Below, piece by piece: positions 1 to 21,310 of a stretch of 22,197 nucleotides of DNA. The stretch is from a virus. The notes under the pieces were generated by a model. It made no database searches, was not told the origin of the DNA, and saw only the letters and a list, made by a program, of their open reading frames with translations. Position 1 is the first letter of the stretch; each line of letters begins with the position of its first letter. The translations under genes and the position numbers were made by a program. Location: positions 1-22,197 of IMG/VR virus record IMGVR_UViG_3300006920_000285; one strand, 5' to 3'.

Positions 1-525
1 ACCGCTACTTCCAGAACTACCACTAGTTCCTGCGGTTCCACTCGAACCAGACGAACCAGATGAACCAGATGAACCAGATGAACCAGATGAACCGCTACTC
101 CCAGATGACCCACTTGTTCCTGCAGTTCCACTCGAACCAGACGAACCAGACGAACCAGATGAACCAGATGAACCAGATGAACCGCTACTCCCAGATGACC
201 CACTTGTTCCTGCGGTTCCACTCGAACCAGACGAACCAGATGAACCGCTACTTCCAGAACTACCACTAGTTCCAGATGACCCATTCGTTCCTGCAGTTCC
301 ACTCGAACCAGACGAACCGCTACTTCCAGAACTACCACTAGTTCCAGATGATCCACTTGTTCCTGCAGTTCCACTCGAACCAGACGAACCAGATGAACCG
401 CTACTTCCAGAACTACCACTAGTTCCTGCGGTTCCACTTGAACCAGACGAACCACTTGAACCAGACGAACCACTTGACCCAGAAGAACCACTAGTTCCAC
501 TAGTACCCGGATCACCTTTGTCACC
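1..525 (-). repeat. Second collagen-coding repeat block with ~90-bp higher-order unit
   Basis: Nine-base units encode Gly-(Ser/Thr)-Ser. Larger units are also repeated: the stretch starting at 91 recurs at 181 with few changes, a 90-bp (30-residue, 10-triplet) period, and shorter shared blocks continue to about 480. Near-identical copies suggest recent expansion by slippage or recombination, so copy number should vary between related phages. The block begins, in the coding direction, with GDKGDPG right after the globular domain. Confidence 0.85.
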
Positions 526-1506
526 TGTACGGGCAAACGTTAATACGCAATCATCTCCGTTTGAAAAAGGATTAGTTTCTGAACTATCGATAGGAGAAAC
601 TGTAAATCTAAAATAACCAGCGTTTTCAGAAATAGCAGTTGTAATTGCAAACATTATAAAAGTAGAAGCGTCGTATAGTTTACTTACTTTTACATGACCT
701 TTAATTGCAGATGTAGAATCATCTATAGTGCGAATATATTCTTGAATATCTGTTCCATTTAAGTCTACATCATCAATATTAATTCTAGTAGATGAATTTT
801 GAGCAACAGAATTAAATAGAAAATTACCGCTACCCGGATCTGTGTCAGTTATCGTTGTTAAAAAATTATACTTAAAAGAAGCGCCGCCAAAATTACCAGT
901 TTGACCTGATGAACCACTTGATCCAGATGAACCGCTACTTCCAGAACTACCACTAGTTCCTGAGGTTCCACTCGAACCAGATGATCCACTTGTTCCTGCA
1001 GTTCCACTCGAACCAGACGAACCAGATGAACCGCTACTTCCAGAACTACCACTAGTTCCAGATGATCCACTTGTTCCAGATGTTCCAGATGTGCCTGAAG
1101 AACCTGAAGTTCCTGATGAACCATCAGTTCCTGATGAACCATCAGTTCCTGATGAACCATTAGTTCCAGAGCTGCCACTAGTCCCAGATGATCCAGTAAT
1201 TCCAGAACTACCACTAGTTCCAGATGATCCACTTGTTCCAGACGTTCCAGATGCGCCTGATGAACCATCAGTTCCTGATGAACCATTAGTTCCTGATGAA
1301 CCATTAGTTCCTGAGCTGCCACTAGTCCCAGACGATCCACTTGTTCCTGCAGTTCCACTTGTTCCAGATGTACCAGAAGAGCCACTAGTCCCAGAGCTAC
1401 CGGCAGGACCCTTCTCTACCGAAGAAGTAGTAACAGTAGATCTCGGTGTTAAATTAACATCGATTTGATTACTACTTGACGATACATTTACATCAATTTC
1501 TCCCAT
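1..1506 (-). CDS. Collagen-like tail fibre / adhesin, C-terminus beyond window
   Basis: The minus-strand frame from ATG 1506 is open to position 1, giving 502 codons with no stop, so the gene is truncated by the window edge. It starts MGEIDVNV, followed by a short polar N-terminus of about 32 residues, probably the attachment end. A first collagen-like Gly-X-Y block of about 56 triplets (1410-893) is made of GSS, GTS, GTN, GTD and GTA. A globular, beta-rich domain of about 120 residues follows (892-526), ending in an FARTGDKGDPG junction. A second Gly-X-Y block (525-1) contains at least 58 triplets. Domains of this kind between collagen-like segments occur in phage fibres. X and Y are almost all Ser or Thr, with nearly no proline, so trimer stability may depend on glycosylation or on the globular domain. 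The start lies 4 nt after the stop of the upstream gene. Identity as a fibre is inferred from composition and position next to tail-type genes. Confidence 0.85.
   Translation of the reverse strand, partial: MGEIDVNVSSSSNQIDVNLTPRSTVTTSSVEKGPAGSSGTSGSSGTSGTSGTAGTSGSSGTSGSSGTNGSSGTNGSSGTDGSSGASGTSGTSGSSGTSGSSGITGSSGTSGSSGTNGSSGTDGSSGTDGSSGTSGSSGTSGTSGTSGSSGTSGSSGSSGSSGSSGSSGTAGTSGSSGSSGTSGTSGSSGSSGSSGSSGSSGQTGNFGGASFKYNFLTTITDTDPGSGNFLFNSVAQNSSTRINIDDVDLNGTDIQEYIRTIDDSTSAIKGHVKVSKLYDASTFIMFAITTAISENAGYFRFTVSPIDSSETNPFSNGDDCVLTFARTGDKGDPGTSGTSGSSGSSGSSGSSGSSGSSGTAGTSGSSGSSGSSGSSGSSGTAGTSGSSGTSGSSGSSGSSGSSGTAGTNGSSGTSGSSGSSGSSGSSGSSGTAGTSGSSGSSGSSGSSGSSGSSGSSGSSGTAGTSGSSGSSGSSGSSGSSGSSGSSGSSGTAGTSGSSGSSG
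893..1410 (-). repeat. First collagen-coding repeat block
   Basis: About 56 Gly-X-Y codon triplets run from GPAGSSG (codons from 1410 downward) to GSSGQTGNFGG near 893. This block is more varied than the second, with GTN, GTD, GAS and GIT triplets as well as GSS and GTS. Its copies are less alike at DNA level, so it looks older than the block at 1-525. The periodic codons leave other frames open and produce false ORFs on both strands here. Confidence 0.85.
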
Positions 1507-2360: not shown

Positions 2361-3521
2361 TTAAACGATAAGACCAATGAGAGCGCGAGTATCAAGAACC
2401 ATACGTCCCTCTTCGAGAGCTCCAAAGTAACCAATTTTACCTTGGCGAATGGTATATTGATCGTCAGCCTGTAAGTTGAATTCAGAACCTGTGTCAGAAT
2501 CAACTGCTACCGCACGAATAAGAGAATCGCGAGATCTGTCAAGACCGACAACAACCTGTTCACTTGCTTGAGCAAAAGTGGTTCCACCACCAGCTACTGT
2601 ATGAGCAGCATAGGTTGTAGCAGCACCACCGACAGAAGAGAAGATAGTGTTGAATTTCTTGCCATCACCTAATTCCAATATTTCCATAATAGAAACACCA
2701 TAAAACTCAGGTAAACCTCCAGAATTAAATAATTCCTGACGAATTGCCTCTGGAGCTGTGATTGAGTCATCACCGGCTGCAGGAGCAGCTGTCAAACTAG
2801 GCCCTTTTGTTGAAATAGGATTATAAGCCATTCCACGAATTTGCTCGACAATTTCAGGAGAAACAATGAGATCTGTTAAACCTCTACGAGCTCCAGAAGG
2901 AGTTCCCCCAACGAATGAAGAGTTAATTCTCTTAATCTTGGTGAACATTTTATTTAAATCGTCAAGAACGAAACGGTTAGCAGCAGCAGAACGGAAAACA
3001 TGCAAGTTATCTGTTGCTGTAGCGCTGTTACCCGTAGAAGCCGTTGCTAATGCAGTCATAAGAAGATTAGCAGATGTTCTTTCTTGCTTCAACATAACTT
3101 CTTGAGCTACGCGAGTGAAAGATTTGCTAACGACATCAAGGCGACTCTTAGCGGCATACTTCTTGTCAAAAGCAACAGCGCTATCTAAACGATAAGTTGC
3201 GATTTTGAGCTCAGAAGCTGTTGGCTGAACGATATTTTGAGGAAGACCTCCTGCAACGGATTGACTATAAACTTTGATATAATCTTCATCGAAAATATCA
3301 TAGTATAAATCAAGAGGAATTGAAGGGTTGTCTTCAGCGTTGAATTGTAAACTTGTGAATAAGTTAGAAACGGTTGGAGCGTTGTTAATGACTTCAGCTA
3401 AGACCGGACCAATGAATTCAGCCAAAGCTACTTGAGCGTCATAGGCTACCTCACGATTCTTGGATGCTAAAGCTTTAATTAGCTCAACCTGTTCGTCTGT
3501 TCTCTTTAAAACTATTTTCAT
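2361..3521 (-). CDS. Probable major capsid protein (HK97-type fold)
   Basis: The product has 386 residues, a typical size for an HK97-fold capsid subunit. It is the last gene of the portal, protease/scaffold, small structural protein series, which is where the major capsid gene normally lies, and a strong terminator follows it. The sequence has a helical N-terminal region (about 1-50) that could be a removable delta domain, then an alternating helix/strand body and a C-terminal IRQGKIGYFGALEEGRMVLD segment that fits the P-domain end. Base composition is clearly less AT-rich than in the glycosyltransferase genes, as expected for a highly expressed gene. No Shine-Dalgarno is seen; the ATG is immediately preceded by a TTAATATATAAT stretch. 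The identification rests on synteny, length and composition rather than a specific motif. Confidence 0.85.
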   Translation of the reverse strand: MKIVLKRTDEQVELIKALASKNREVAYDAQVALAEFIGPVLAEVINNAPTVSNLFTSLQFNAEDNPSIPLDLYYDIFDEDYIKVYSQSVAGGLPQNIVQPTASELKIATYRLDSAVAFDKKYAAKSRLDVVSKSFTRVAQEVMLKQERTSANLLMTALATASTGNSATATDNLHVFRSAAANRFVLDDLNKMFTKIKRINSSFVGGTPSGARRGLTDLIVSPEIVEQIRGMAYNPISTKGPSLTAAPAAGDDSITAPEAIRQELFNSGGLPEFYGVSIMEILELGDGKKFNTIFSSVGGAATTYAAHTVAGGGTTFAQASEQVVVGLDRSRDSLIRAVAVDSDTGSEFNLQADDQYTIRQGKIGYFGALEEGRMVLDTRALIGLIV

Positions 3522-7936: not shown

Positions 7937-8587
7937 TTAAAAAGAATATAGAAATACATTATTATTTCCAGTAAAAACTATATCATCATGCCTAGTCCAA
8001 CTTTTTTCTATTAAAAAGTCATGACAATCCATACCTTTGCCTACTGTTTTATCGTTTGTCTGAAAAATCTCTTTTCTACCATCAGGAAAAAATAATTCCA
8101 CCCATGTATTCGGCATATAATTATCGTCTATAGCTATAAAGGAGTTATTATTGACCCTATAAAAAAAAGAAATTAATTCACTCAAGTGATGAGAGGAAGA
8201 TGGTTTTGGATTATGCAGGTCTAACTCATAAGAATCTAAAAAAAACAAATCTATAGAATTGATAAAAGAATCAGGCATTCCTGAAATACTCTTAACACTA
8301 TCAGCACAAACATGATCTATTACATCTAAATATTCTTTATTGTATTTTCTAGATAATTTTATATGACCGTAATCATTATCTATTGTAGTTAATGTGCCTC
8401 CAAAATAATTTTTAATAAACTTAGCAAAAACATTAGTGAAACCTATTTTTCCAGAAAACTGCGTTCCCGTTTCCAAAATGTTAATCGGCCTATTTAAAGA
8501 CTCAAAATACTGAAAACATTTATAAAGGAATTGCTTTCTTGATTCAGTAAAAGAACAATTTTCTATTTCTTCTATAATCTTACTCAT
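7937..8587 (-). CDS. SAM-dependent class I methyltransferase inside the head operon
   Basis: The product has 216 residues with a Rossmann-type methyltransferase layout: glycine-containing motif I ILETGTQFSG (37-46), acidic end of the second strand TTIDND (67-72), motif with FFLDSYELD (115-123), then DDNYMP (154-159). This pattern resembles the methyltransferase-24-like family that acts on sugars or small molecules. Its ATG overlaps the terminase stop as ATGA, so it is translated with terminase, and it ends 56 nt before the portal gene. Such an enzyme is not needed for head assembly. It is either a cargo gene or part of virion/glycan modification together with the FkbM enzyme at 15301-15936. 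The substrate is unknown. Confidence 0.78.
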   Translation of the reverse strand: MSKIIEEIENCSFTESRKQFLYKCFQYFESLNRPINILETGTQFSGKIGFTNVFAKFIKNYFGGTLTTIDNDYGHIKLSRKYNKEYLDVIDHVCADSVKSISGMPDSFINSIDLFFLDSYELDLHNPKPSSSHHLSELISFFYRVNNNSFIAIDDNYMPNTWVELFFPDGRKEIFQTNDKTVGKGMDCHDFLIEKSWTRHDDIVFTGNNNVFLYSF

Positions 8588-14264: not shown

Positions 14265-15323
14265 ATGATTTTCCACTGTTTAAGTGTCCCTTATACCCCC
14301 ACTAAAAAAGAAGTGTCCTTGTGCGCTTTTACTCAAAAAGTCTATAAATTTTGTGAAGAAATGACCAAACGTGGCCATACAGTATATCATTATGGGCATG
14401 AAGATTCTGAAGTCACATGCACAGAGCACATAACCGTAACAAACAATGAAATTTTAAAAAAAAGTTATCAAGATTTAAATATTTGGAAAACAGAGGGCTT
14501 TAATCAAAGCGTTCACACCGAAGCTGTAAAAATTTTTAATGAAAATTGCATTAAAGAATTAAATAATAAAATAAAATCTCCAAATGAATTTATATTATGC
14601 TGGTTTGGGTTTGCGCATGAACCCTGCGTCAAAAATTTTAAAAACAAAGCAATAATTGTGGAACCCAGCATCGGATATGATTCAATGTTTGCTGAAATTA
14701 AAATGTTTGAAACTTATTCACAAATGCACAAACTCCATGGAGCGTCAAAAACAAATGTGCATTTCAATAAAGAATTTGTAGTTTATCCCGGCTTCAAAAA
14801 AGAAGATTTTTTATTTAAAAAACAGAAATCTAATGCAGCTCTTTTTCTAGGTAGAATCACAGACGAGAAAGGAGCTCAAGCTGCATATGATATGTGCAAC
14901 GCAGCTGGTCAAGAAATATATTTTGCGGGACCAAACACACTAAAACTTAAAGATACAAAATATTGCAAGATGCTTGGTTTTGTAGAACCAGAAGAAAGAA
15001 AAAAACTATTGTCTGACGCCAAATTTTTATTAGCTCCAAGTTTTTTTGTCGAACCATGCAACTGGACAGTGATAGAAGCTCAATTTTCAGGCACACCAAC
15101 TATAACGACAGATTTTGGAGGGTTTACTGAAACAGTTAAGCAGAGTTATACTGGATTTAGATGCTCGACATATCAACAATTTAATTTCGCGATAAGAAAA
15201 GGGTTTAAAGAAATTGAGCCTGAAAATTGTCTAAAAAATGCGACCCATAATTTTACCATAGAGATACAATGCAATCATTATGAGATGATATTTAGTCAAA
15301 TCACACAACAACTCCATTTATAA
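14265..15323 (+). CDS. GT4-type glycosyltransferase
   Basis: The product has 352 residues with GT-B architecture. The N-terminal half contains a VEPSIGYDS segment (132-140). The C-terminal half has FLGRITDEKGA (194-204) and the EX7E donor-binding motif of GT4 enzymes (Glu263 to Glu271 in EPCNWTVIE), then SGTPTITTDFGG. It should transfer a sugar from a nucleotide-sugar donor; acceptor and sugar are unknown. It is the only plus-strand gene between 1 and 21617. It ends convergently with the FkbM methyltransferase gene, with coding regions overlapping by 23 bp. The ATG at 14265 is preferred over the ATG at 14261, which opens only a 14-codon frame. Base composition is strongly AT-rich like the other glycan genes. 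Confidence 0.88.
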   Translation: MIFHCLSVPYTPTKKEVSLCAFTQKVYKFCEEMTKRGHTVYHYGHEDSEVTCTEHITVTNNEILKKSYQDLNIWKTEGFNQSVHTEAVKIFNENCIKELNNKIKSPNEFILCWFGFAHEPCVKNFKNKAIIVEPSIGYDSMFAEIKMFETYSQMHKLHGASKTNVHFNKEFVVYPGFKKEDFLFKKQKSNAALFLGRITDEKGAQAAYDMCNAAGQEIYFAGPNTLKLKDTKYCKMLGFVEPEERKKLLSDAKFLLAPSFFVEPCNWTVIEAQFSGTPTITTDFGGFTETVKQSYTGFRCSTYQQFNFAIRKGFKEIEPENCLKNATHNFTIEIQCNHYEMIFSQITQQLHL

Positions 15324-15936
15324 TTATTTCAGTATAATAATCTTTGTTACCCCAATAATATTCAGAAATGTCATAACCATCAGTTGAGTAAAGTCTAAAA
15401 TCAACTGAAGAATCATTTTTTAATTTATCCATCATTTCGTAAACTTCACTTCTTGGGAAATAATCGTTGCCAGCAAAATGAATTTCACCAGCAAATTTTT
15501 TTACATTTTTCTTAAATAAGTCATAATGAGTTACTAAAAATGTTTTCTCGTAACTTTCTATATCAAATTTTAAAAAATCAATTTTTCTATTTAGAAATTC
15601 CAACAAAGAAGGAAATGTTATAGAACTCACCTTTTGTTTTTGATCCTCATCATAAAAAGACCAATTAAAATCTTGGACTTGTAAGCTTTCACTAATAAAA
15701 GCGTTTATAATAAGGGGCTGTCTTTTGTCTTCTAAATTATCATAAAAATCATTTATACAATTTACGCTAGCATCCAACCCAACATAAACAATATCTTTAT
15801 CATAATTCTTAAAATAAAATGGACCCTGAGAGCACCCCAGATCCAGAACAAAGTCTCCGTCATTAACGTCAATAAATTTTTGATATTGATTATGTTCAAA
15901 TATTTCTTTATATGTAGAAGCGTGAATATTTTTCAT
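15301..15936 (-). CDS. FkbM-type SAM methyltransferase
   Basis: The product has 211 residues. Motif I VLDLGCSQGPF (30-40), acidic loop GLDAS (53-57) and the FkbM signature DFLKFDIESYE (120-130) are all present. FkbM-family enzymes O-methylate hydroxyls on sugars, polyketides or small molecules. Next to four glycosyltransferase activities, methyl capping of a glycan is the natural proposal. It starts 4 bp inside the end of the 1314-residue glycosyltransferase gene (ATGA-type overlap region) and is the last gene of its operon. Its 3' end overlaps the convergent GT4 gene by 23 bp, and no terminator is visible there. Confidence 0.85.
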   Translation of the reverse strand: MKNIHASTYKEIFEHNQYQKFIDVNDGDFVLDLGCSQGPFYFKNYDKDIVYVGLDASVNCINDFYDNLEDKRQPLIINAFISESLQVQDFNWSFYDEDQKQKVSSITFPSLLEFLNRKIDFLKFDIESYEKTFLVTHYDLFKKNVKKFAGEIHFAGNDYFPRSEVYEMMDKLKNDSSVDFRLYSTDGYDISEYYWGNKDYYTEIIINGVVV

Positions 15937-18900
15937 AAATTATTTTCTTTTCTTAATAAATTAATTTTATTTTTTACCATTTCAAAAGATATTTCCTTTG
16001 TACACTCAAAATTTTTGTTTTCGGGACACCAAAGCCAATTCGAGGGCTCAAACTGAAAAGAATCATTATTCCAGCATCCGTTACAAACTTTTTCATTTAT
16101 AACTCTGTAAGGGCTAGTAAACTCAGCATAAGGCTTAGAGAATCCCGATATCATCACCACTGGTTTTTGGCAAGCCCAAGCCAACCAAGATAGACCCGAA
16201 CCTAAACCAATAAAAAATTCACAATTGTATAAATCGTCGATTCTGTCTTGTAAACTTATGTCTCCAGTTTTATCTATACAATCACTTGGTATTGTGTTTT
16301 GATTACCCTTTATTCCAAAAGTTTTATGTTTATCTATACAAACAACGTCATAACCCAAAAACTTTAAATAATTTACAACTTTTTTCCAACCGTTTTTATT
16401 ATTCCAATACTTAGCTTGAGCTGTGGATTGAGTAGCTATGCAGACATATTTTTTAGAAAAAGACGAAGGTCGGCTCTTTTCTATTAAAACAGTTTTTTCT
16501 TCCTCATAAGGGATATCTAAAATTTTACATGCAACTTCTTGCAAAGAGTTGTTATGTGAAGTTGGTATGTCATAATGTAATTCTATAATAGAATCTTTAG
16601 ATTCAGGTTTCTGATTGTAATCGAAAAAGTTTATTAAATCGTACTTATCTTTATTGAAAATTTGCTTATGAGGACTGTAAAAATTAACTTTAGTTTTATT
16701 AAGTTCAGCGTATCTCTGAACCATAGGTACCCAAGCTATACAATCCCCTAAACTTCCTGATTCATTTACTATGTCTACAGTATTCTCCGGCGAAGGTAAA
16801 ATGTCATTTTCAACAGTATTATAAAATTCATGTTTGACTTTAGTTGATAAATTTTTTACAATTATTTTAACTCGCTCGTTGATTTCATCACAACCTGCCC
16901 ACATACCATTATTTATAGTAGTTCGATAAACTATAAAATTATCTTTTTCTTTTACAAAAGAAACTTCGTAATCAAACTGGTCGCTGCCACTTATCTCTAT
17001 TTTTGGCTTAGGGTTAAAAGTTGCATTGAAAATGTTTTTATCAGGCAAAGCAAAAGTTTTGATTTGGACATTATGCGCTTTATCCATGTTATCTAAAATA
17101 TAGCTCTTTAAATTATCACCATTTATAAAATTAATTAATTCTTCGTTTTTGTATTCACTTCTTAAAGTCTCTATATCTGAGATAAAACAAGGCATGTTCC
17201 ATGATAAAGCTTCTTTAATTGATATGGGATTGAGCTCTTTATAGGACGGTAAAACAAAAAGATCCATTGCTGCCATATAATCCCCTACATTATCTCTTTC
17301 ATCATGAACCACACAATTAGGAAGAGCTTTCATTTCTTCCGTTAATCCACAGTCATTATAAAAACATGTGTTACCAATAAAATGAAATTGAACGTCTTGG
17401 TTTTTTAATTGACTGGCTAGCTCATATAAAAATTTTTGATTTTTATTGCTATGAAAAAGAGCTACATTTAAAACATGATAATAATTGGGATTCAGACCTA
17501 ATTTAATCAAGCTAGAGGTCCTGTCTGGTTTAACTTTCTTTTCTACTTTCATGTCAACTAATTTAGACGACACATTTAAATTACATAAGTTTTTATGAAA
17601 AGATGAACAAAAATGAAACGCATCGGGGATTAATTTTTTGTCGTTAAAGTCGAACTCAGAAGTGTGACAGGTTTCTAAGATTTTAAAACTTCTGTTTTCA
17701 TCATATAGAAAGTTTTTTATGTCGTCAGTCAGTTTTTTTAAACTGAATATTTCAGCTAGCTCGTTTAAATGTATTTCATCAGGATTATAATCTTTTATAA
17801 AGTCAATAAGCTTTTGCGATTTTTCATCATATTGTTCATCGCTTTGCCTTAGATGACCAAAAGATAAAAAGTTTTGCTCACCAACTAAATCAATTATACA
17901 ATTTCTGTGAACAACATAATCTCCATAATAACAGTATTCAACAACTTTAACATCATAGCCTTGCGACTTTCTTTTATTTATTAACCAAAGAAGGTATGCG
18001 GGTGAACCACCAGTAGAAAGATGTGGAGCCAAAAACAAAATCTTTTTACTTTTTGAGGGTGTAATAATTTTTTCTATACAATCTACAACATTTTCAACTG
18101 GAGGATGACAATCGAAAGAACTCCTGTCTTCTAAACAATTTATAAGCGGCGGCACTCCTTGGATTGTTCCCCACTCTTTAATTCCATGTTTAATATCAGA
18201 AGCGCAGAAAGCTTCACAGGAACCTGAAATATAATCATACTTATATGATTGAGAATTTTTTCTAAATGGAGCTCTTAACTTATTGTTTATGGAAGATCCT
18301 AATTGAATAATATTTGTATCTGTTGTTCCTGCTAAATGGAGTAAACCCGAATCCATTGTGACAAATGCCTTCGCTTTATTTATAACATTCCAACATTGAG
18401 ACAGTGTTAATTTATTTGTTAAATCAATACCTAAATTAACATTTATGTCAATTGTTTTTTTATCTATTTCAAAAAAACCTCTTTCATGACTGTTTTTTCC
18501 AACTAAAACTACAGGTATATTTTTAGATGTTAATGTTTTAGTTAATTCTTCCCAATTCTTTTTTTCGTAAGTTCTAGAAGGCCAAGTCGATCCCACATGT
18601 AAAGCTATATAATCTTCGGGAAGATCATCTATGGCCTCACTCTCTTCAGGAATAAAATCATATTCCATTTCCGATTCACTTAAACAAAAACCTAAATCTA
18701 AAGCGTGAAACTGTCTTATATCAATTGTGCTATGTTTTTTTTCTATACCTCTCTTGTTTTTACCGCCTATATCAACAAAAGTTTCAAACACTTCTTTAGC
18801 ACTCTTTCTTAAATTCAATGTCCTTAAATCATCAAAAGAAAATGTTTTGTTAACATACGGATTGTTTTTAAATAATTCTGGAACATGAGTAACTACATTA

Positions 18901-19877
18901 ATTTTACTCTCGTAAACAAAACTTAGTTTTCTTAACGTAGGCGTTGCAGCTAATGTATCACCTAAAGAGGAAGAATGAATTAAAAGATAAAACTGTTTCA
19001 TATTTTCTTTCATTTTATTATAAACAGAATCACTGCATTTCCCATGAAAAAAATGTAAATTTTTCATAGAACCTTTTGATGGTATAGTACAAAAAGAAGT
19101 AATCCTTTCCAAAGAGTCTTTAGGATTGTCTAATTTTTTCAACATTAAATCAACATCACCTATTTCTTCTGGTATGTTTATTAAAACTCTATCTAAGCTC
19201 TGAACATTTTTTATTTTCCATAATAAACAATTAATTACAGTTTCTTCATGAAAAGGGGTTAAATATTGCCAGTTTTCTAAAATTAAATCCGAATAACATA
19301 ATTTTTTCCACTCTTCTAAAAAATGAGAGCATTTTTCATCAAAAATAAAAACTCCTGTTTGTAAATAACTAGCAGTACGAATATTTACGTCTAAACCAAG
19401 CTCATTCAATAAAGGCGCTTCCAAACATAAAGATAAATCTACTCCATTAGTGGTGAACGGATTACCTCTCCCACTATGTAACATGAATTCTTGACAACCT
19501 AAATTCAACAACGGATAATAGCTTATATTTTCAAATTTACCAAAAATTAAATCACAGTCATGTCTCGCTATACAATCAGCATCTATGTAACAAAAACGAT
19601 TTTCATTTCTAAAATCCTTTAAAACTTCTAGAACAATTATAGGCTTCAAAAAAACAAAAAAAGCTTTATCAACAAAGCTAGAACTTTTTTTATATAAAGC
19701 GGAAGTAAAATTATCTGAGTTTAATCTTTGCGGTATTACATTGTCAAATTTATTTTTGTAATCAAAATCAATAGTATAAAATATAATCTTATAATCTGAA
19801 AATAATTTTAAGCTTTCAAAAAGCCTTTCAGCATGTTTTAAAAAGTCTTTATCACAATGAGTAACAAAATAGTTCAT
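15933..19877 (-). CDS. Four-domain glycosyltransferase with TibC/Aah-like C-terminus
   Basis: The product has 1314 residues and appears to fuse four enzymes. (1) About 1-292: GT-A fold, GT8-like, DxD motif YIDAD (98-102 region). (2) About 296-605: GT9-like, SSLGDTLAATPTL (303-315), HVGSTWPSRTYEKKNW (427-442) and TMDSGLLHLAG (507-517), with a cysteine set at 554, 558, 581 and 590. (3) About 611-935: GT4-like, LAPHLSTGGSP (616-626), EX7E from Glu881 to Glu889. (4) About 945-1314: strand-loop-strand front (955-1000), GSLGDCIAWVP (1041-1051), YVCIATQSTAQAKYWNN (1144-1160), GLGSGLSWLAWA (1224-1235) and cysteines 1265, 1268, 1284, 1292. Domain 4 fits autotransporter O-heptosyltransferases (TibC, Aah), which sugar Ser residues of surface proteins and bind iron through four cysteines. 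The likely job is stepwise building of a glycan on a protein, possibly the phage fibre. No membrane segment is seen. Domain limits are estimates. Confidence 0.85.
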   Translation of the reverse strand: MNYFVTHCDKDFLKHAERLFESLKLFSDYKIIFYTIDFDYKNKFDNVIPQRLNSDNFTSALYKKSSSFVDKAFFVFLKPIIVLEVLKDFRNENRFCYIDADCIARHDCDLIFGKFENISYYPLLNLGCQEFMLHSGRGNPFTTNGVDLSLCLEAPLLNELGLDVNIRTASYLQTGVFIFDEKCSHFLEEWKKLCYSDLILENWQYLTPFHEETVINCLLWKIKNVQSLDRVLINIPEEIGDVDLMLKKLDNPKDSLERITSFCTIPSKGSMKNLHFFHGKCSDSVYNKMKENMKQFYLLIHSSSLGDTLAATPTLRKLSFVYESKINVVTHVPELFKNNPYVNKTFSFDDLRTLNLRKSAKEVFETFVDIGGKNKRGIEKKHSTIDIRQFHALDLGFCLSESEMEYDFIPEESEAIDDLPEDYIALHVGSTWPSRTYEKKNWEELTKTLTSKNIPVVLVGKNSHERGFFEIDKKTIDINVNLGIDLTNKLTLSQCWNVINKAKAFVTMDSGLLHLAGTTDTNIIQLGSSINNKLRAPFRKNSQSYKYDYISGSCEAFCASDIKHGIKEWGTIQGVPPLINCLEDRSSFDCHPPVENVVDCIEKIITPSKSKKILFLAPHLSTGGSPAYLLWLINKRKSQGYDVKVVEYCYYGDYVVHRNCIIDLVGEQNFLSFGHLRQSDEQYDEKSQKLIDFIKDYNPDEIHLNELAEIFSLKKLTDDIKNFLYDENRSFKILETCHTSEFDFNDKKLIPDAFHFCSSFHKNLCNLNVSSKLVDMKVEKKVKPDRTSSLIKLGLNPNYYHVLNVALFHSNKNQKFLYELASQLKNQDVQFHFIGNTCFYNDCGLTEEMKALPNCVVHDERDNVGDYMAAMDLFVLPSYKELNPISIKEALSWNMPCFISDIETLRSEYKNEELINFINGDNLKSYILDNMDKAHNVQIKTFALPDKNIFNATFNPKPKIEISGSDQFDYEVSFVKEKDNFIVYRTTINNGMWAGCDEINERVKIIVKNLSTKVKHEFYNTVENDILPSPENTVDIVNESGSLGDCIAWVPMVQRYAELNKTKVNFYSPHKQIFNKDKYDLINFFDYNQKPESKDSIIELHYDIPTSHNNSLQEVACKILDIPYEEEKTVLIEKSRPSSFSKKYVCIATQSTAQAKYWNNKNGWKKVVNYLKFLGYDVVCIDKHKTFGIKGNQNTIPSDCIDKTGDISLQDRIDDLYNCEFFIGLGSGLSWLAWACQKPVVMISGFSKPYAEFTSPYRVINEKVCNGCWNNDSFQFEPSNWLWCPENKNFECTKEISFEMVKNKINLLRKENNL

Positions 19878-19902: not shown

Positions 19903-20937
19903 TTAAAAATTTAAATAAAATTCTTTATCAAAAATAATCTCTTGATTTTTCTTTGACACGACTCTATAAAATATCTCATCAGCAACAGGTTTTTGCGATT
20001 TGATAAAAAAATCAACATCTGGAGTAATTGTTAAATTTGTCGTAAATAATAATTCCCCTTTGTCGTCATAAATATTAAAATCAAAATTATCATTTGTTTT
20101 AGTATTAACCACATAAAAACAGTGCTCATCTCTTTTATATATGATATCAAAAATAAAATCATTTTCTTTATTAGTTTTATGAACAACAGGCATAGGCAAA
20201 CTCCTGCTATCATAAAAATCTTTATTAAAAATTAATTTATTTTCTGAATTATATTTGAAAATACACCTACAACCCTCTGGTCCATTATATTTTCTATTTT
20301 GGTTAATAATTTTATCTGAAGTCCGTGGATCAGTCTCCAGCCAAGAATAATGGTCTACAAAAGCTGTATTTTTAGGGATTATAATTTTATTTATATTATT
20401 ATCAGTAGTTAGTCCATTTTTGTATCTAACATAACAATCAAAATAAAAGTCTTTAACACCTTCATGCCTATCAACCCAAAACGCAACAGATTTACTAAAA
20501 CCATCTTGCCAGTAAGGGTATTTAAAAACATAATTCTTAAATTGAATATCATAGATGTCAAAATGTTCATTTTCATTAATAAAGTCAATAATTTTTAAAA
20601 TTTGTTCTTTTGTATAGCATTCATCAGCGTCTACAACCCATATCAAATCCACATTTCGGTCTAATGCGAAATTCAGCATGTAATTTCTACCTTGTTCTTC
20701 GGTCCATAATTCTCCAGTGCCTGATGAATGTAAAAGAAAATCTAATTCTTTACCTATTAACTTTAAAAGCGAATGAGAACCTTTAGCATCGTTTTTATCT
20801 TCCGGTGAAAGACTATATCTGCCGTTTGTTGCGGCTAAGATTAACCCCAACTTATCTTTTAACTCTAACCAAGGCTCAAAAACCTTATCTATGTGAGCAG
20901 CACAATTATATGCAGAAAATAATACTCCTATCTTCAT
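19903..20937 (-). CDS. GT2-like glycosyltransferase with C-terminal beta domain
   Basis: The product has 344 residues. The N-terminal GT-A domain begins MKIGVLFSAYN and carries EEQGRNYML (80-88) and the metal-binding VVDADE (101-106). After about residue 255 comes a beta-rich C-terminal domain of about 90 residues (FIFDIIYKRDEHCFYVV...) without catalytic motifs, which may recognise the acceptor; in layout it recalls the strand-rich front part of the TibC-like domain in the next gene. The ATG overlaps the stop of the small acidic gene (ATGA), and the giant glycosyltransferase starts 25 nt after its stop. It probably adds another sugar in the same pathway. Donor and acceptor are unknown. Confidence 0.83.
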   Translation of the reverse strand: MKIGVLFSAYNCAAHIDKVFEPWLELKDKLGLILAATNGRYSLSPEDKNDAKGSHSLLKLIGKELDFLLHSSGTGELWTEEQGRNYMLNFALDRNVDLIWVVDADECYTKEQILKIIDFINENEHFDIYDIQFKNYVFKYPYWQDGFSKSVAFWVDRHEGVKDFYFDCYVRYKNGLTTDNNINKIIIPKNTAFVDHYSWLETDPRTSDKIINQNRKYNGPEGCRCIFKYNSENKLIFNKDFYDSRSLPMPVVHKTNKENDFIFDIIYKRDEHCFYVVNTKTNDNFDFNIYDDKGELLFTTNLTITPDVDFFIKSQKPVADEIFYRVVSKKNQEIIFDKEFYLNF

Positions 20938-21248
20938 TCTTCTTGTTTTATATGTTCATTAATAACAGTAGTAAAGAAAGTAGTAAATCCTAAAGCTTCA
21001 ATACTATCGCACACTTTCATATTAGACACATACCTACCAGCAAACTTACATGAGAAAAATTTACCATCTGCATCAGGGTCTCTGACTTTCTTATAAAAAT
21101 CCTCAGATTCTAATACCACCACTTCCGCTGCAGACATATCTTCGGTGTACTCATCAAAATCAACCGAATCATAGTACACCCCTTCATCGTCAGGAATCGC
21201 AGCCCGTTTTTCCCGGCTTTCATCTAGGTATACCATTAAATAATCCAT
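20934..21248 (-). CDS. Small acidic protein, first gene of the glycan operon
   Basis: With the chosen start (ATG 21248) the product has 104 residues: MDYLMVYLDESREK and onward. A longer frame to 21305 exists, but its extra 19 codons would contain the complete promoter, so the inner ATG is preferred; ATG 21236 is another option. The protein is acidic (DEGVYYDSVDFDEYTED region), with no signal peptide, membrane segment or recognised domain. It overlaps the GT2-like gene by 4 bp and is less AT-rich than the glycosyltransferase genes. It may be an early regulator or an accessory protein; the function is not recognised. Confidence 0.7.
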   Translation of the reverse strand: MDYLMVYLDESREKRAAIPDDEGVYYDSVDFDEYTEDMSAAEVVVLESEDFYKKVRDPDADGKFFSCKFAGRYVSNMKVCDSIEALGFTTFFTTVINEHIKQEE

Positions 21249-21255
21249 ACTGTAT

Positions 21256-21284
21256 ATAATAATGAATAGGTGGGCGGCTGTCAA
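21256..21284 (-). promoter_or_regulatory. Strong sigma70-type promoter of the glycan operon, leaderless start
   Basis: TTGACA (21284-21279), exactly 17 nt, TATTAT (21261-21256), then 7 nt and ATG at 21248. This is the best sigma70-type promoter in the window. The 7-nt distance puts the transcript start at or beside the start codon. A/T-rich repeats lie upstream (21330-21384) and could serve as an UP element. It probably drives the minus-strand genes to 15301. Confidence 0.8.
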
Positions 21285-21310
21285 ATAATATTTATCTGAT
21301 TTCACCTATT
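21265..21310. promoter_or_regulatory. Inverted repeat flanking the -35 box, possible operator
   Basis: AATAGGTG (21265-21272) and CACCTATT (21303-21310) form an 8-bp inverted repeat with a 30-bp gap. With one extra base, the match extends to TGA(A)ATAGGTG in both arms. One arm lies in the spacer of the glycan promoter, the other just upstream of its -35 box. Such an arrangement would suit a repressor dimer or a looped pair, but no regulator is identified. Confidence 0.4.

Follow-up and report, generated by a model that had tools for sequence, protein, structure and literature searches.

The closest described relatives of the enzyme considered here are TibC and Aah (BAHT; TIGR04414; structures 4rap and 4rb4), a family characterised by an N-terminal beta-barrel needed for activity, a dodecameric ring, ADP-D,D-heptose as donor and serine as acceptor. 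In its own substrates TibC is described as modifying Ser and not Thr, and it accepts peptides (PMC4358343). A single virus protein of PBCV-1, A064R, carries two glycosyltransferase domains and an O-methyltransferase domain for the virion glycan, and Mimivirus L230 is able to glycosylate the virus's own low-proline collagen-like proteins (both as outlined in PMC9614988). BclA is a glycosylated prokaryotic collagen-like protein (PMC8968730), and phage-encoded decoration of virions has been reported for Mycobacterium phages (cited in PMC12619734). The glycosyltransferases of aquatic phages are mainly read as modifiers of the host surface or of DNA in the relevant parts of PMC7029224, PMC10202952 and PMC12619734, the last of which also mentions virion glycosylation for phages. 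No paper on TibC-type enzymes of phages was found in the open-licence full-text literature, nor was one on glycosylated phage collagen fibres when the titles and the beginnings of abstracts in the open-licence literature were considered.

The window, i.e. the whole stretch of DNA that was analysed, is a 22,197-bp IMG/VR virus fragment, so that the phage genome is incomplete here. It encodes an enzyme that resembles TibC/Aah in its equivalog-level sequence, in a predicted fold with the beta-barrel, the Asp and four Cys, and in a probable Ser acceptor within a repetitive protein. It differs in being phage-encoded and fused to three other glycosyltransferase domains, and its likely partner is a collagen-type fibre, the target repeat of the autotransporters being unmatched in 28 TibC-positive phage records. 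Each of the other systems also differs: A064R ends the N-glycan of an algal virus, with no TibC domain in the description given, and L230 is a lysine hydroxylase and glucosyltransferase acting on hydroxylysine in a virus of amoebae (both in PMC9614988); BclA is a spore protein bearing a tetrasaccharide with rhamnose and a 2-O-methylated sugar (according to PMC6222408); and the decorated proteins of Mycobacterium phages are capsid and tail-tube subunits, not collagen fibres (cited in PMC12619734). Of the possible explanations for this locus, we favour as the best supported, and consider likely, that the TibC-type enzyme starts O-glycan synthesis on serine residues of the collagen fibre encoded by the phage itself.

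On the minus strand, the order in the window is transferase module, phoH, terminase and collagen fibre. While phoH and the terminase were identified by PHROG matches, the names portal, protease, sigma-like and capsid protein were assigned by gene order and sequence. The features that matter here are as follows.

1..1506, minus strand: first 502 aa of a collagen-type fibre, truncated at the edge of the window (PF01391, 2.8e-50; PHROG tail fibre families); proposed acceptor
14265..15323, plus strand: GT4-family glycosyltransferase, adjoining phoH (PF00534, 1.2e-12; phrog_3408, 5.8e-60)
15301..15936, minus strand: FkbM-family methyltransferase, possibly adding an O-methyl cap (PF05050, 1.4e-5, 25.8 bits, cut-off 22.7)
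15933-19877, minus strand: ORF of the four-domain 1314-aa protein
15936..17042, minus strand: domain 4 of this protein (aa 946-1314), TibC/Aah O-heptosyltransferase family (TIGR04414; TibC 4rap); proposed priming enzyme
17043..18062, minus strand: domain 3 (aa about 606-945), GT4 family (PF00534, 4.1e-12, aa 791-913)
18063..19022, minus strand: domain 2 (aa about 286-605), GT9 heptosyltransferase type (PF01075, 3.3e-28, best stretch aa 410-540)
18996..19877, minus strand: domain 1 (aa 1-294), glycosyltransferase of predicted GT-A fold (predicted structure; without a Pfam match)
19903..20937, minus strand: GT2-like protein, variable module member (PF00535, 0.0026, weak)
20934..21305, minus strand: small ORF, which borders the variable module in several relatives (e.g. 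L004, L019, L116, L117, L119)

An earlier note on this DNA, made from the sequence alone, had placed a glycan module here, and its ORFs were confirmed at their positions, with the GT4 (PF00534) and FkbM (PF05050) families above cut-off; against the NCBIfam model fkbM_fam the methyltransferase ORF reached 19 bits, under the cut-off of 37.7. For the GT2-like ORF the position was right and the family assignment weak, the PF00535 match lying below cut-off. No family was found for the small ORF in Pfam, PHROGs or NCBIfam. The reading of the large gene as a four-domain glycosyltransferase also held, as GT-A fold, GT9, GT4 and TibC/Aah domains succeed one another along the 1314-aa protein, and so did the likeness of its product to TibC/Aah, since the domain scores above the threshold of the curated equivalog model and has retained the residues for catalysis and iron binding.

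The Aah/TibC equivalog model TIGR04414 (cut-off 200) gave 286.4 bits with the whole protein and 265.1 bits with its C-terminal 375 aa, while models of LPS heptosyltransferases stayed under their cut-offs. Domain 4 matches TibC in the PDB (4rap) at E 1.4e-55. Its AlphaFold model (pLDDT 87.9) has TibC 4rap as top match (TM 0.74, E 3.2e-30, 379 aligned columns) and, in the model only, forms an N-terminal beta-barrel of seven strands within the first 73 residues. The catalytic Asp (TibC D110, replaced by Ala in the inactive mutant structure 4rb4, D110A) aligns with aa 1045 of the 1314-aa protein and is present in all 32 aligned phage TibC domains; the four iron-finger Cys (TibC 339, 342, 358, 370) are all in domain 4, and each of them occurs in 31 of the 32. 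Membership is settled by sequence: the C-terminal domain is a phage-borne representative of the TibC/Aah O-heptosyltransferase family. For domain 1, no Pfam family was matched, and its model (pLDDT 92.6) retrieved LARGE1 (7ui6, E 1.5e-7) and glycogenin (1zct, E 1.9e-6) from the PDB with Foldseek, at TM about 0.5; D99, D101, P122, E153, E212 and H278 are invariant in 30 aligned sequences. Six module and methyltransferase proteins were checked, none with a clear membrane segment; the peak of hydrophobicity over 19 residues (1.78, at aa 68 of the 1314-aa protein) falls within the modelled GT-A domain.

The fibre fragment contains two runs of 58 Gly-X-Y triplets, 116 in total, and a run of at least 58 appeared in none of 2000 shuffles of the fragment. 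More than 110 triplets of the form Gly-(Ser/Thr)-Ser had been claimed in the earlier note; the number is correct for Gly-X-Y triplets, but it overstates the stricter form, which accounts for 94 of the 116 (X mostly Ser/Thr, Y mostly Ser), and Pro occurs in two triplets. By its Gly-X-Y repeats (PF01391) the product is a collagen-like phage fibre, and it is presumably present in the virion. In another record (L023), whose mapped genes are 100% identical to those of the window, the fibre gene continues to at least 708 aa, and in the relative G013 (L109) the collagen ORF terminates in an S74 chaperone domain, a domain known from phage fibres.

In Ser/Thr collagens generally, X is Ser or Thr about equally, while Y is predominantly Ser (set means 0.78-0.86, as against 0.02-0.05 for Thr). 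At Y, Ser outnumbered Thr in all 47 loci (9 from the window family, where one of ten was dropped for too few triplets, 23 TibC-positive and 15 TibC-negative), whereas in 21 of 22 Pro-type controls, chosen by their Gly-Pro pattern, it did not. An enzyme restricted to Ser and working at Y would explain this bias. The bias may also be structural, because it is equally strong in Ser/Thr-collagen records without TibC.

In the pathway that we infer, and this applies alike to the fibre as acceptor, the site, the sugar, its extension and methylation and the purpose, the TibC-family domain would add the first sugar to serines of the collagen fibre in the cytoplasm of the infected cell, the Y-position Ser of Gly-(Ser/Thr)-Ser triplets being the most likely acceptor. 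The first sugar may be that used in bacteria, D-glycero-D-manno-heptose from ADP-heptose; the host of the TibC-positive phage Mel-JY01 is Microcystis, a cyanobacterium, and this was counted against the reading. Extension of the glycan may then fall to the GT-A, GT9, GT4 and GT2-like enzymes, fused or adjacent, and its O-methylation to FkbM. As the module differs among close relatives, individual phages probably carry different glycans, with priming as the constant step.

Of the glycan module proposed in the earlier note, only part is constant among relatives, namely the TibC domain and the neighbouring GT4 gene (the latter present in 33 of 50 records), whereas GT2-like, FkbM and the other glycosyltransferase domains vary. 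Up to the GT4 gene the relatives have differing fused transferases, several of them of 600-1640 aa, and some carry additional genes such as an epimerase (L115), a carbamoyltransferase (L004), DUF6165 (L117) or FkbM-like genes. Within the window family, TibC is found in all 27 records with a complete GT4 gene (63-100% identical), although these represent fewer than 27 independent events because some are near-identical strains. PF01391 is found in 24 of the 27; the contigs of the remaining three (G002, G007, G028) stop short of the fibre site or at it.

The wider relationships were traced through the capsid protein (2361-3521), for which no Pfam or PHROG family was matched and tblastn against 50,697 phage records gave no match, while IMG/VR holds relatives in 164 stretches (80 of 164 retained). 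A related group (G045-G050, capsid protein 68-72% identical) has neither TibC nor PF01391 in any of its six records, these being fragments of 15-51 kb of which only G050 reaches far beyond GT4; a distant GT4 (42-46%) is kept in four of the six. A more distant sister lineage, found via its TibC, comprises eight loci with TibC 0.6-1.7 kb from a Ser/Thr collagen, the capsid protein sharing 45-47% identity with that of the window in the three loci compared. Both genes are absent in the one group and both present in the distant lineage, as joint gain or loss would give. TibC domains as low as 30% identical to that of the window occur in different gene contexts.

For a broader comparison, IMG/VR was scanned with two codon patterns, one requiring eight Gly-(Ser/Thr-like)-(Ser/Thr-like) triplets in a row and the other Gly-Pro triplets. 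Each scan gave at least 120 stretches; neither is a census, and the counts hold among the matches listed. Records of at least 40 kb were classified by their repeats, with the Ser/Thr type defined as at least 28 triplets and S/T of at least 0.74, and were afterwards searched with TIGR04414. The 44 controls consisted of 30 records with Pro-type, mixed or short collagen and 14 having between 0 and 12 triplets. Among the matches listed, TibC was present in 23 of 38 Ser/Thr-collagen records vs 1 of 44 controls (Fisher p 2e-9), in sets unmatched for habitat and lineage, and 22 of the 23 exceeded the TIGR04414 cut-off. The single positive control (G115, i.e. L156, 170 kb, mixed) also has a long Ser/Thr collagen, its Pro-type collagen lying closer to TibC. 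Restriction to records of at least 75 kb, again among the matches listed, gave 16 of 19 vs 1 of 15 (p 1e-5). Six Ser/Thr-type records of at least 40 kb stood outside the count (L166, L171, L187, L240, L252, L262), and among the controls were the three records L161, L167 and L172, each having 11-12 simple Gly-Thr/Ser triplets; p becomes 8e-8 if the six are counted as TibC-negative, and 4e-7 if the three are moved too. Ser/Thr collagen without TibC occurs in 15 of the 38, including contigs of 148, 104 and 96 kb.

Glycosyltransferases in general are also commoner alongside Ser/Thr collagen. In 25 long records of each type, PF00534 (GT4) was matched in 24 Ser/Thr vs 7 control records and TibC in 21 vs none; the Ser/Thr set is 25 of the 26 searched of at least 60 kb, without L206 (62 kb, TibC-negative), and the controls leave out L156/G115 (170 kb, TibC-positive). 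The transferase enrichment arises partly because TibC is often fused to GT4. When only GT4-matching records are considered, TibC is found in 21 of 24 of the Ser/Thr type and in 0 of 7 controls. The explanation that large phages simply carry glycosyltransferases was rejected on the TibC counts in the two sets of 25.

The two genes are also close to each other. In 18 nearly whole TibC-positive Ser/Thr records, compared with 20,000 random placements, TibC and the nearest Ser/Thr collagen were at most 2 kb apart in 7 (expected 1.1), at most 5 kb in 10 (expected 2.5) and at most 10 kb in 13 (expected 4.7), and none of the 20,000 placements reached the observed 2-kb or 10-kb counts. This test supersedes an earlier adjacency estimate, in which P was 2.5e-5 or 0.13 depending on the assumed number of collagen genes. 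Five TibC-positive records were left out of it (G062, G063, G068, G070, G081), and four of these have a Ser/Thr collagen less than 10 kb from TibC, with none in G062. Examples from named phages are Mel-JY01, in which TibC and a Ser/Thr collagen are one large gene apart, and the huge phage LR756501, in which they lie close together. Part of this closeness could be due to a tendency of accessory genes to cluster near fibre genes.

Searches that started from TibC gave a mixed picture. Relatives of TibC occur in at least 585 IMG/VR stretches. Among the best 80 TibC-first loci, with flanks of at most 10 kb and a criterion of at least 15 Ser/Thr triplets, a Ser/Thr collagen was found in 7 of 32 loci from the window's and sister lineages, all 7 belonging to the sister lineage, and in 2 of 48 loci outside them. 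The flank misses the fibre in the window's family because the fibre is about 14 kb away, and the 2 of 48 imply that a close TibC-collagen neighbourhood is not general. In whole TibC-first records, PF01391, which does not separate the Ser/Thr from the Pro type, was matched in 16 of 21 (18 longer IMG/VR records of at least 35 kb from outside the window family and three named phages; TibC-first records of similar size that were left out include L436, L454, L456 and L492). The five without a PF01391 match include the huge phage LR756504 (636 kb). The earlier note had named, as a case that would speak against it, related phages that carry the module but never a Ser/Thr-rich structural protein; for the whole set this is absent, while individual TibC records do lack a collagen match, these being the 5 of 21.

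A set picked by terminase, using query terminases from TibC-positive phages, comprised 32 of 80 loci (contigs of at least 25 kb). TibC and collagen were each present in 23 of the 32 and showed no association, collagen being found in 17 of 23 records with TibC vs 6 of 9 without (p 0.69), and the test as run gives no support for a link. The six records with collagen but without TibC are fragments of 25-35 kb; at 50 kb or more the counts are 10 of 12 vs 0 of 2, too few to weigh. The survey of enzyme and fibre repeats in related phages that had been proposed in the earlier note is on the whole in favour of the link: TibC goes with Ser/Thr and not with Pro-type collagen, lies nearer to it than chance in the 18 records placed and is absent together with it from a related group, but the terminase-picked set does not show the association.

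These data bear on four other explanations. The module might glycosylate another virion protein (capsid, tail tube or a different fibre), with the Ser/Thr collagen merely co-travelling in large phages. Capsid and tail-tube glycosylation is indeed reported for Mycobacterium phages (cited in PMC12619734), five of the 21 TibC-first records have no collagen match, and glycosyltransferases in general track Ser/Thr-collagen phages; we nevertheless think this unlikely, as even among GT4-matching records TibC is confined to the Ser/Thr set and, in the 18 records examined for distance, is closer to the collagen gene than random placement would put it. It is quite unlikely that the association is ecological or phylogenetic, both genes being frequent in a single broad group of large phages but functionally unlinked. 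TibC domains diverge down to 30% identity in differing gene contexts, a related group lacks both genes while a more distant lineage has both, and a similar pairing exists at a few bacterial loci; in favour of such an origin are the frequent yet unassociated occurrence of both genes in one terminase-picked lineage and the lack of matching for habitat and lineage between the Ser/Thr and control sets.

An alteration of the host surface polysaccharide (O-antigen) that excludes other phages is how the glycosyltransferases of pelagimyophages, likewise located in the tail fibre gene region, are read (in the part of PMC7029224 concerned), and the GT9 and GT4 families include LPS enzymes. For the present module we regard it as very unlikely, because the model that is passed, TibC/Aah, describes a protein O-glycosyltransferase and LPS heptosyltransferase models remain below cut-off, because the six module and methyltransferase proteins examined lack a clear membrane segment, and because the partnership with Ser/Thr rather than Pro-type collagen would be left unexplained. 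Glycosylation of phage DNA, a role commonly proposed for phage glycosyltransferases (as in the passages on them in PMC12619734 and PMC10202952), is extremely unlikely here: TibC belongs to a protein-glycosylating family, and the thymidylate-synthase family PF00303 occurs in only 7 of 28 TibC-positive records and is absent from both long relatives of the window phage.

If priming on the phage's own collagen fibre is correct, it provides a concrete and checkable protein target for one large class of aquatic-phage glycosyltransferases, and the TibC/Aah family would then act on virions as well as on bacterial adhesins (with at least 585 related IMG/VR stretches). It would also offer an explanation for the folding of nearly proline-free collagen fibres and for the diversity of the transferase locus between close relatives. 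To our knowledge, this would be the first prokaryotic virus system that glycosylates collagen. More tentatively, we consider it possible that the locus represents a widespread class of phage glyco-collagens, in which a TibC-type enzyme acts on Y-position Ser of Pro-poor fibres, the sugars serve the triple helix as hydroxyproline serves it in animal collagen, the hypervariable, domain-shuffled locus provides a strain-specific coat, and the same pairing of TibC with a Gly-Ser-Ser lipoprotein exists in a few bacteria.

The acceptor known from bacteria was also sought. TIGR04415, the model of the autotransporter target repeat, had matches in one of three bacterial genomes and the E. coli control and in 0 of the 28 TibC-positive phage records, many of them incomplete, and an autotransporter-like acceptor in the phage was rejected on this basis. 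The missing repeat bears on the target of the enzyme, not on its family membership. In the best 80 of 449 bacterial TibC loci, three (L550, L557, L572), which are MAG loci titled Acidiferrobacterales or Gammaproteobacteria, have TibC about 0.2-1 kb away from a lipoprotein-like (GSSGTSG)n ORF that contains Gly-Ser-Ser/Gly-Thr-Ser repeats. A collagen of at least 15 triplets was found in 3 of these best 80 (L493, L550 and L572, with 11 triplets in L557), and L493 resembles a phage contig.

A second TibC-like stretch, approximately 280–320 aa long, adjoins the TibC domain in six of the viral records (G007, G018, G025, G027, G041 and G042), where it is matched mostly without the first 70–80 positions of the model.

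Among the best 80 of 449 bacterial TibC loci, three from MAGs carry a TibC/Aah-family gene with a small lipoprotein-like repeat ORF nearby:

L550:8557-8985, repeat ORF with a long acidic tail
L572:11258-11884, repeat ORF
L557 near 4018, repeat ORF

These ORFs contain Gly-Ser-Ser/Gly-Thr-Ser repeats, and such pairs may be a bacterial equivalent of the combination of TibC and collagen in phages.

A small protein adjoining the TibC-bearing enzyme, and positioned ahead of the fibre or GT4 gene, was assigned to DUF6165 (PF19662) in the two loci to which Pfam was applied:

L480:10828-11217, DUF6165 small protein
L117:6847-7218, DUF6165 small protein

Five other loci (L473, L474, L492, L119 and L019) have ORF starts resembling it, as judged by eye. 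The protein is perhaps an accessory of the transferases.

In G013, a long relative of the window phage, consecutive ORFs resembling sugar-pathway and transferase genes by eye (L109:9466-19975) lie 6 kb past a collagen ORF.

Within the window, the convergent GT4 (+) and FkbM (-) genes share 23 bases at their 3' ends (15301-15323). Between terminase and portal lies a further gene, present in some relatives only, which looks like an insertion:

7937-8587, methyltransferase-like gene (Methyltransf_24, below cut-off)
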